Assembly: GCA_000955795.1 (NCBI GenBank)
Contig: JYOB01000014.1
Coordinates: 159,415 to 223,414, forward strand
DNA from: Burkholderiaceae bacterium 26
GTDB taxonomy: Bacteria; Pseudomonadota; Gammaproteobacteria; Burkholderiales; Burkholderiaceae
Length of the DNA: 64,000 bases
Direction of reading: 5' to 3'
The notes beneath the pieces are model-generated. The model saw only the letters and a list, made by a program, of their open reading frames with translations, had not been told where the DNA came from and did no database searches. Below, in pieces: positions 14,703 through 24,592 of the stretch (position 1 is its first letter; every line of letters begins with the position of its first letter). Position numbers and translations under genes: made by a program.

Positions 14703-15338
14703 TCAGCCCGCGCGCACCCGGTACACCGCCACGCTGCCGCGCCAGTTGGCCCCCCAGCGCACCACGCTGCCTTCGTGCAGCACAACGCGATCGAGAATCA
14801 CCAGCCCCACCTTGGGCGCCAGCGCTTCAAAGTCGCGGATGGTCAGCACGCGCACGTTGGGCGTGTTGTACCACTCGTACGGCAGCGACTTGGACACCGG
14901 CATGCGCCCGCGGAAGATCGAAAGCCGATGCGGCCAGTAGCCGAAGTTCGGGAACGACACGATGCACTCGCGGCCCACGCGCAGCATCTCGCGCAGCACC
15001 TGCGCCGTGTTGTGGATGGTCTGCAGCGTTTGCGAAAGGATGACCGTATCGAAGCTCTTGTCTTCGAACAGCGCGAGCCCGCCTTCCATGTTCTGCTGGA
15101 TCACGTGCACGCCCTTTTTCGCGGAGGCCAGCACGCCCGCATCGTCGATCTCGATGCCGTAGGCCAGCACGTCGAGCTCATCCTGCAGCACGCGCAACAA
15201 GCTGCCGTCGCCGCAGCCAAGGTCGAGCACGGTGGAGTTTGGCTCGATCCAGCGGGCGATGGCGCGAAAGTCCGCGCGGTCGGTCAGGATGTTCGGCACT
15301 GCGGACGGCGCAGCGGGGTTCAGCGTTTGCGTTGTCAT
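14703..15338 (-). CDS. metW: Methionine biosynthesis protein MetW
   Basis: 211 residues with a class I SAM-methyltransferase fold: motif [13 protein letters not shown] (about 39-50) and the MetW-type [10 protein letters not shown] and [11 protein letters not shown] blocks. MetW accompanies MetX in many proteobacteria and is required with it for homoserine acylation in some species; its precise reaction is unsettled. The ATG overlaps the metX stop (ATGA), so the pair is translated together. Confidence 0.93.
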
Positions 15339-16549
15339 GCGCCGATCTCCTGCGCGATGCGTTCGTAATAGGCGCGGACCAGCGCGTGGTAGCGCGCGTC
15401 TTCCAGAAGGAAAGCGTCGTGACCGTGTGGCGCGTCGATCTCGCCGTAGGTGACGGGATGCTTGTTGTCGAGCAGCGCCTTGACCAGCTCGCGGCTGCGC
15501 GCCGGGGCGAATCGCCAATCGGTCATGAAGCTGACGACGAGATAGCTCGCCTTGGTATGCGCAACGGCCTTGGTAAGGCTCCCGCCGTAGGCCAGTGCGG
15601 GGTCGAAGTAGTCGAGCGCACGCGTGATCAGCAGATACGTATTCGCATCGAAGTACTCGGCAAACTTGTCGCCCTGGTAGCGCAGGTAGCTCTCGACCTG
15701 GAACTCGACGTCGAACGAGAAACGGATGTCGTCCGCCTTCAGCTCGCGGCCGAATTTCGCGGCCATGTCTTCGTCCGACAGATACGTGATGTGGCCGATC
15801 ATCCGGGCAACGCGCAGGCCGCGCTTGGGCTTGACGTTGTGCGCGTAGTAATCCCCGCCGTGGAAATCGGGATCGGACAGGATCGCGCTGCGCGCCACCT
15901 CGTTGAAGGCGATGTTCTGCGCCGACAGCTTGGGCGTGGACGCCACCACCACGCAGTGCCGCAGCCGGTCCGGATACATCAGGCTCCAAGCCAGTGCCTG
16001 CATGCCGCCGAGACTGCCGCCCATCACTGCCGCAAATTGCTGGATGCCGAAGCGATCAGCCACGCGTGCCTGGGCGTTCACCCAGTCTTCCACCGTCACC
16101 ACCGGGAAGCGCGCGCCGTAGGGCAGGCCGGTTTCCGGATGCGGGCTCATGGGGCCCGTCGAGCCGAAACACGAGCCCAGGTTATTCACCCCGATGACGA
16201 AGAAGCGGTTGGTGTCCACCGGCTTGCCGGGGCCGACCATGTTGTCCCACCAGCCGACTTCGCCCTCGACGTGCACGCCCGCCACGTGGTGCGAGGCGTT
16301 GAGCGCGTGGCAGATGAGCACGGCGTTGGAACGGTCGGCATTGAGCGTGCCGTAGGTTTCGACCATCAGGTCGTAGCCGCTGATCTGCGAGCCGTTGCGC
16401 AGTTGCAGCGGCTCGGCAAAATGCATGCGCTCGGGCACGACCAGGCCGATGGCGTTGGCCGGCTTGCCCTGATGTGCCTTCGGAGAGGATGGATCGGCCT
16501 GCGCCGCATCGGCTGCGGTGACCGCGGTGTCAGCCTGGATGTCTGTCAT
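15335..16549 (-). CDS. metX: Homoserine O-acyltransferase MetX
   Basis: 404 residues of the alpha/beta-hydrolase MetX family. The nucleophile Ser179 is in [10 protein letters not shown] and the catalytic His in PHGHDAF (about 374-380). It acylates homoserine in the first dedicated step of methionine synthesis. Acetyl- versus succinyl-CoA preference cannot be read reliably, and several betaproteobacterial MetX proteins use succinyl-CoA. The start at 16549 lies 8 nt past the T tract of an intrinsic terminator and downstream of a SAM-II-like element, so expression is probably controlled by SAM through the leader. A longer frame to 16591 would begin inside the terminator and is rejected. Confidence 0.93.
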
Positions 16550-16556
16550 GGCACCA

Positions 16557-16602
16557 AAGAAAAAACCCGACCGGCAACGCTGTTCACGCAACCAATCGGG
16601 TT
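16557..16602 (-). terminator. Leader terminator immediately upstream of metX
   Basis: On the minus strand an 11-bp stem (16602-16592 with 16574-16564; 5' arm AACCCGATTGG, 3' arm CCGGTCGGGTT, two G-U pairs) is followed by TTTTTTC. It ends 8 nt before the metX ATG, so it must be an attenuator rather than an end-of-gene terminator. It is the natural output of the riboswitch-like element just upstream. Confidence 0.85.
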
Positions 16603-16654
16603 CTCATGTGGCGCACGTGGGGCGCTTGCTTTCACCGCCCCCGCTCTGACCGAA

Positions 16655-16749
16655 CCTCTTTAGCCGCATTTGTAATGAGAGCCCAGAGCCACATCCGTGG
16701 ATGTCTGAACTCCCGCGCGCCCGCAAGCCAGTCGTCAAATCGGCGCGCC
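16655..16749 (-). promoter_or_regulatory. SAM-II riboswitch-like aptamer in the metX leader
   Basis: Read on the minus strand: helix P1 is GCGCGCC (16748-16742) with GGCGCGC (16721-16715), enclosing a 20-nt loop that starts GATTTGAC and ends CTTGCG. After a 43-nt segment containing a small hairpin (ACATCC/GGATGT, 16691-16704) comes AAATGCGGCTAAAGAGG (16671-16655). The GATTT, TTGC, AAATG and GCTAAAxAGG blocks match, in order and relative place, the conserved core of the SAM-II (metA/metX) riboswitch, where GC/TT pair with GCTAA in the pseudoknot. A -10 box sits about 12 nt upstream and metX lies downstream. Identification is from memory of the motif, not from a covariance search. Confidence 0.8.
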
Positions 16750-16760
16750 AGAGGAAAGTG

Positions 16761-16766
16761 ATTATA
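16761..16766 (-). promoter_or_regulatory. -10 box of the metX-metW promoter
   Basis: TATAAT on the minus strand, placed so that transcription would begin at about 16754, a few bases before the SAM-II-like aptamer. The -35 region is weak (TGATGC-like) and overlaps the palindrome at 16781-16808. Confidence 0.65.
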
Positions 16767-16780
16767 GAGCAAGCGGCGGC

Positions 16781-16808
16781 GGACGCATCACCGCATCGTG
16801 ATGCGTCC
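16781..16808. repeat. 11-bp perfect inverted repeat between gabD and the metX promoter
   Basis: GGACGCATCAC (16781-16791) and GTGATGCGTCC (16798-16808) flank a 6-nt loop. There is no T tract on either strand. It covers the metX -35 region and lies just past the gabD stop, so it could be an operator, a gabD mRNA 3' stabiliser, or both. Confidence 0.7.

Positions 16809-22901: not shown

Positions 22902-24592
<1,691 letters not shown>

Follow-up and report, generated by a model that had tools for sequence, protein, structure and literature searches.

A SAM-II riboswitch with an inserted hairpin very probably precedes metX in a Ralstonia-like genome, its core strand being a candidate antiterminator

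Which signal controls metX in this Ralstonia-like genome, and by which strand of the leader RNA could it be passed on to the gene? The window (the whole stretch of 64,000 nucleotides analysed here) carries on its minus strand an open reading frame for an alpha/beta-hydrolase-fold homoserine acyltransferase, which we take to be metX from the claim of an earlier note on this DNA, from its MetW neighbour and from general knowledge. This gene and metW likely form one operon (Table 1), and the genes upstream of the leader code for an aldehyde dehydrogenase and a class-III aminotransferase. As metX belongs to the methionine pathway, the element studied stands in the leader of a methionine/SAM gene, as is the case for SAM-II. 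The earlier note had pointed to a TATAAT box, a P1 helix, a loop holding GATTT and TTGC, the SAM-II core and an 11-bp terminator before metX, all of which the sequence confirms in substance.

The element was compared with its relatives by means of alignments and covariance models. Alignment A1 holds 28 of the 30 leaders of the window's family (L010 and L015, with an aptamer identical to that of another row, were omitted). R1 is a covariance model that includes the window, while R2 was built from matches gathered with R1 beyond the window's family, 76 in number and spread over 72 loci; four of these loci each repeat a place already represented, and four of the matches are each a second motif in an already matched leader. 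Alignment A3 and model R3 comprise 20 sequences, each above the cut-off of RF00521 (SAM_alpha), the Rfam SAM-II family; 12 of these loci were first fetched with R1 and each scored by Rfam, and eight came directly from the RF00521 search.

Table 1. Parts of the metX leader and the genes that follow it (feature, positions in the window, strand, evidence)
-10 box TATAAT of the metX promoter	16766-16761	-	sequence
P1 5' strand GCGCGCC	16748-16742	-	sequence; pairing in A1 and A3
L1 GATTTG, conserved SAM-II loop motif	16741-16736	-	invariant in A1 and A3; aligned to RF00521 consensus
P2 pseudoknot 5' strand GACT	16733-16730	-	partner GGTT 16656-16653; weak, two G.U pairs; proposed register
GCTTGC, second conserved loop block	16728-16723	-	RF00521 alignment, A1, A3
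P1 3' strand GGCGCGC	16721-16715	-	sequence; pairing counts in A1
Inserted hairpin between P1 and core strand	16714-16677	-	covariation; R2 insertion; all six folds
Core strand AAATGCGGCTAAAGAGG, 3' side of the SAM pocket/P2, proposed antiterminator strand	16671-16655	-	invariant in A1
Terminator 5' arm and loop start GAACCCGATTGGTTGCGT	16603-16586	-	pairing probability with core
Intrinsic terminator, 11-bp stem 16602-16592/16574-16564 and T-run	16602-16556	-	sequence, RNA folding
metX, homoserine acyltransferase, alpha/beta hydrolase fold	15335-16549	-	ORF; PF00561; ATG 16549-16547
metW, directly 3' of metX, same strand	14703-15335	-	PF07021 MetW, E 2e-63

Only the -10 box of the metX promoter is supported, since a generic promoter scan of the window found no sigma-70 pair and no -35 for metX. 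The TATAAT lies 8-13 nt 5' of the P1 CGCGCC in Ralstonia-like and Cupriavidus-like loci, and the RNA presumably starts at about 16754, just 5' of P1. A perfect 11-bp inverted repeat, GGACGCATCAC/GTGATGCGTCC (16781-16808), is found just 5' of the -10 box, in the place expected for a -35 element or an operator. At the other end of the leader, the metX terminator hairpin reaches -25.1 kcal/mol in RNA folding and its T-run has six T at 16565-16560 and three more to 16556; the terminator search included in the promoter scan did not list this minus-strand hairpin.

The SAM-II blocks GAUUU, CUUGC and AAAU..GCUAAA follow one another in order. The 17-nt core occurs a single time in the window at up to two mismatches and was matched in 0 of 100 shuffled windows; it is invariant in all 28 rows of A1, which all come from stretches 5' of metX matches. 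The six counted pairs of P1 are formed in 28/28 A1 rows, none ever varying, and in A3 120 of 120 cells are paired, with the outermost pair changed on both sides in 8 of the 20 rows. Three of the four outer P2 pairs are formed in 28/28 A1 rows and the outermost in 26/28 (one mismatch, one gap); these outer pairs are short and include G.U, and five of the six P2 pairs never vary among the A1 rows, so that they are without covariation. The GC of the GCTTGC block is able to pair with the core GC as an inner P2. In the window leader, a linker hairpin separates the core strand from the terminator.

At its gathering score Rfam gave no match in the window, where the earlier note had expected a significant SAM-II hit, and none in 15 related loci. 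At relaxed limits RF00521 matched two adjacent pieces on the same strand, 16747-16716 (20.5 bits) and 16694-16639 (13.2 bits), below the gathering score of 36, and the match falls into two sub-threshold pieces because an inserted hairpin separates P1 from the 3' core strand. The SAM-II_long_loops family (RF01726) and SAM-V, related SAM-binding pseudoknots, were not among the six relaxed Rfam matches (E up to 10), and the matches to RF02230 sX11, two microRNA families and SNORD88 in that scan were dismissed as chance (E 0.9-6.2, far under the cut-offs). R3 recognizes both halves of the element, in order (33.0 bits, E 7.4e-8 and 20.5 bits, E 2.8e-4), and R2 aligns the whole of it (16750-16643, 59.3 bits, E 3.6e-15) with the hairpin as an insertion. 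Since R3 was built solely from sequences above the cut-off and still recovers both halves, we read the failure at the RF00521 gathering score as a shortcoming of the model and not as evidence against membership. Weak R2 and R3 matches elsewhere in the window, at 24136-24211 (15-17 bits), are inside long ORFs, on both strands, and we regard them as chance.

The same homology extends over the genus and the order. R3 matches every one of the 16 genomes in this genus (Ralstonia), 12 by the P1 half and four by the whole, and in 14 of the 16 the complete element could be read. R1 has matches in 167 of 300 order genomes, and RF00521 itself exceeds its cut-off in 20 of 120 order genomes vs 0 of 14 controls (E ≤0.01 in 54 of the 120). 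Other families of the order have the same core, many of them without the hairpin, and among 20 loci RF00521 passes none of the eight with the insertion and 9 of the 12 without it. The metX leader resembles RF00521 in P1, L1 GATTTG, GCTTGC and the AAAT..GCTAAA core, as well as in the promoter box just upstream, the terminator downstream and the methionine gene; it differs in the 38-nt hairpin that it carries after P1. Judged by its sequence, it is very probably a SAM-II riboswitch, and the earlier assignment to this class, with a terminator before metX, gains support from the RF00521 pieces, from R2 and R3 and from the matches across the genus.

The inserted hairpin, of about 38 nt and absent from the Rfam SAM-II model, had also been noticed before, and its existence is backed by covariation, by its presence in all six computed folds and by its alignment as an insertion in R2. 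Among the 28 family leaders, six of its seven counted pairs show compensatory changes and 92.7% of cells are paired. For the whole structure these leaders have a covariation score of 0.204; shuffles give 0.092, with none of 500 reaching the real score, and slid partners give no more than 0.086. Six pairs are changed on both sides vs 3.8 in shuffles, a count reached by 17 of the 500. Compared with its dinucleotide shuffles, the inserted segment has the better fold (p<0.05) in 46 of 49 other loci of the family. These 49 are the 60 fetched family loci minus nine without a match to the expression, L124 and L136, which repeats a Cupriavidus-like locus. R2 finds three of the nine that the expression missed; in 6 of the 60 fetched stretches (L114, L117, L119, L120, L121 and L137) no element was found even with R2. 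The element of L124 lacks the insertion, so the hairpin is not universal in the family. A pattern demanding the insertion matched at least 120 stretches of named genomes, and the genera among the 80 matches listed include Burkholderia, Paraburkholderia, Caballeronia, Trinickia, Pararobbsia, Mycetohabitans, Pandoraea, Cupriavidus, Ralstonia and Methyloversatilis. We regard the hairpin as presumably a structural spacer and not a sensor. One locus (L141, 1501-1609) has a second insertion, inside the L1/P2 loop, in addition to the junction hairpin. A pairing of AUGUGGC in the inserted hairpin with a GCCACAU that precedes the terminator, spotted by eye in Ralstonia-like leaders, was set aside, being absent from the folds and without a visible counterpart in the Cupriavidus-like loci.

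SAM-II was defined in 2005, in a paper whose relevant parts describe many terminators and whose figure legend includes Bordetella bronchiseptica (PMC1273637). The passage on the class in a 2018 paper still calls it alpha-only (PMC5756330), and the corresponding section of a 2024 review classes it with riboswitches that mask the ribosome site directly (PMC10907184). For Sinorhizobium meliloti metZ, the section on this gene in another paper predicts that SAM-II ends transcription upon SAM binding (PMC9373788). This resembles the window in the predicted SAM-dependent termination before a methionine gene, and differs in being alpha-proteobacterial and in that the core strand is not described there as an antiterminator. 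The idea of the earlier note that termination is unusual here, SAM-II mostly masking ribosome sites, is not supported, though the account given in the 2024 review sides with masking.

A likely counterpart of the metX leader has been in the literature since 2014. Leyn 2014 presented, as new and without a ligand, a 'metXZ' element before metXW and metZ in beta-proteobacteria, with six conserved regions, pseudoknot pairings 1:4 and 2:6 and a downstream terminator; its table lists metXZ in 6 of 6 Ralstonia genomes, and in the parts that treat SAM_alpha the latter is reported only in Rhizobiales and Rhodobacterales (PMC4239095). The position before metXW in Ralstonia and other beta-proteobacteria and the terminator are as in the window, and the 1:4 and 2:6 topology, as described, matches P1 and P2. 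In contrast to our reading, metXZ is kept separate from SAM_alpha in the text of that study, and another antiterminator is proposed (PMC4239095). Comparing the two by description and topology, we conclude that the window element is very likely the orphan metXZ, and in the open-licence PMC literature we found no paper equating metXZ with SAM-II. SAM-II as a class and its output by terminator were known before. New are the variant that escapes the library, its connection with metXZ and the switching role proposed for the core strand. An RNA element reported in 2014 without a ligand thereby gains a likely one and a testable mechanism. The insertion, by splitting the match in the Burkholderia/Ralstonia family, is also one reason why library searches can report SAM-II as alpha-only, and an RF00521-type model with an optional hairpin should recover such elements in genome annotation.

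How would the aptamer act on metX? We are rather confident that the leader, a SAM-II with a hairpin between P1 and core, is a transcriptional OFF switch that works through the core strand and the terminator 5' arm. Without SAM, presumably the ligand, the core AUGCGGCUAA followed by GGUUC would pair with GAACC followed by UUGGUUGCGU in the 5' arm as soon as this arm is transcribed; the terminator could then not form and metXW would be transcribed. With SAM, the core strand would be locked in the P2 pseudoknot and the ligand pocket, leaving the 5' arm free, so that the terminator would form, transcription would stop about 10 nt before the metX start and metXW would be off. That SAM binding pulls the core strand from the antiterminator is what we infer from the SAM-II pocket, as outlined in the section on this class in the 2024 review (PMC10907184). 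In the window the antiterminator consists of TTGGTTGCGT (16595-16586) with the core at 16669-16660 and of GAACC (16603-16599) with GGTTC (16656-16652). When the leader is cut before the terminator 3' arm, the mean probability of this pairing is 0.94, a value reached by 0 of 300 shuffled arms (10 of 300 exceed 0.5). Among the close leaders it is above 0.5 in 21 of 28 (12/14 Ralstonia-like, 9/13 Cupriavidus-like, 0/1 g5) and below 0.5 in seven, falling to 0.03 in L027. In the full-length fold, computed with a program that cannot form pseudoknots, the terminator is more stable even with the core free, and P1 is also replaced by other pairs. As the terminator wins at equilibrium, the switch would have to be kinetic, depending on timing during transcription.

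The antiterminator might instead be made by the P1 3' strand region, UUGCGGGCGCGC, which is GC-rich; many terminator arms carry CCCG. This was the speculation for metXZ in the text of Leyn 2014, which named GC-rich regions 3 and 4 (PMC4239095); these would correspond to our P1 3' segment. We compared the candidate strands with the terminator 5' arm in one locus per genus, starting from 91 leaders (30 of the family and 61 of the order, the latter being 61 of 72 loci after omission of 11 that repeat a place or are extra members of a genus). Left out of the 91 were nine without a detectable terminator (L037 and L038 among them) and two, L158 and L165, with an L1 unmatched by the expression; the terminator used for L162 falls within a coding region and is probably spurious. 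For the core strand, complementarity to the arm reaches p<0.05 in 15 genera out of 41 (about two expected), against 1/41 for the P1 3' segment, 0/41 for L1 and 3/41 for the reversed core, which also has a small overall excess (combined P 0.02 over the 41 genera). In the window leader p is 0.02 for the core and 0.31 for the P1 3' segment, which makes an antiterminator of the P1 3' strand improbable. In 26 of the 41 genera core and arm pair no better than chance, and variable positions of the core did not significantly co-vary with the terminator arm (11 of 17 paired vs 9.0 expected, P 0.16).

A relative of SAM-II with another ligand, such as SAH or methionine, the hairpin marking a new class, has a slimmer chance still. 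The ligand is assigned from homology, and the insertion after P1 lies outside the Rfam model; against this, the blocks GATTTG, TTGC and GCTAAA are invariant in both A1 and A3, related elements without the insertion pass the Rfam SAM-II model and the gene belongs to the methionine pathway. Equally poor prospects attend a translational output, with the terminator as a constitutive attenuator, even if such a case is on record: for the SAM-II of S. meliloti metA, the section on that gene does not predict the downstream terminator to be affected by SAM (PMC9373788). In L162, L166, L171 and L174, moreover, the core GAGG is found 5 nt before a metX-like ATG. The window GAGG, by contrast, is about 105 nt 5' of the metX ATG with the terminator in between, no clear Shine-Dalgarno stands beside that ATG and the core-arm pairing is specific. 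Chance resemblance, in which an ordinary metX leader would neighbour the terminator of the upstream aldehyde dehydrogenase gene, can practically be set aside: Rfam gives no match at gathering and a transcript from upstream might conceivably end at this terminator, but the core is unique against shuffled windows and invariant in 28 rows, R2 and R3 match, the element is in 16/16 genus genomes and the recovery of both halves by R3 speaks strongly against it.

The preferred reading for the window, transcriptional control by way of the core strand, has a counterpart in Burkholderia-like relatives, where the core strand can instead free a ribosome site. In Caballeronia-, Paraburkholderia- and Trinickia-like loci and in those of genus g28, TGCGGCTAAAG is able to pair with GTTTAGCCGCC or close variants of it. 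This site, mostly 29-37 nt before the start, could alternatively bind a Shine-Dalgarno, for example AAGGCGGAA (-9.8 kcal/mol in most). The Pararobbsia-like loci have CGGCTAAAGCG as core and CGCTTTAGCC as its partner. Core complementarity reaches p<0.05 in 25 of the 49 family loci, the loci of one genus not being independent: 8/8 in g28, 3/3 in g30 (Trinickia-like), 3/3 in g33 (Pararobbsia-like), 4/6 in g41 (Trinickia-like), 3/5 in g10 (Caballeronia-like), 3/8 in g37 (Paraburkholderia-like), 1/6 in g27 (Pandoraea-like) and 0/10 in g32, g34, g7 and g8 (the last Mycetohabitans-like). Of 120 insertion-bearing loci from named genomes, 72 show GGCGG after an TTTAGCCG-type site, while TTGG(C/T)TGC with a downstream T-run occurs in 15, these 15 covering all 11 Ralstonia- or Cupriavidus-labelled records among the 80 matches listed; both motifs are missing in 33 of the 120, and 19 of these 33 have a T-run. 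In L162, L166, L171 and L174 (family f4 and allies), where the metX-like ORFs have 410-450 residues, the ribosome site may be part of the aptamer, which would be direct masking.

Considering the order as a whole, we lean towards a general scheme in which the SAM-II core is the switching strand: it would be the antiterminator in Ralstonia, Cupriavidus and other genera, whereas in Caballeronia, Paraburkholderia, Trinickia and some Burkholderia it would act as anti-sequestor of the ribosome site; the output would change while the aptamer stays the same, and metXZ would be a hidden SAM-II subclass, marked by the hairpin in the family of Ralstonia. Such a natural series suggests that one aptamer strand may drive control of either transcription or translation.

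SAM-II also seems to control genes other than metX in some genomes of the order, to judge from what follows it: a metX-like ORF is found downstream in the fetched stretch in 31 of the 61 order loci and is absent in 30. Several order genomes (G026, G034, G180, G209, G428 and others) have three or four R1 matches each. In 9 of the 61 order loci (L063, L177, L172, L168, L146, L154, L158, L165 and L170) a second SAM-II-like motif, of the pattern GATTTAA/GAGTTAA/GATTTAG .. ACTTGC .. GCTAAA, is found 51-113 nt after the SAM-II match and before small ORFs, seven of which contain an MFDC or MYDC start. A Pfam search with the first 70 residues of two of these MFDC/MYDC ORFs gave no match. The second motif and SAM-II could possibly form a tandem of two SAM sensors. 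Antisense to SAM-II leaders there are matches to the family RF02424 (Bp2_287, 'Burkholderia sRNA'), with 43.4 bits in L165 (1463-1599, plus strand) and 36.5 bits in L158 (276-412, minus strand) for a cut-off of 70, and more weakly in L172 and L177; RF02424 may thus be a mis-stranded SAM-II leader.
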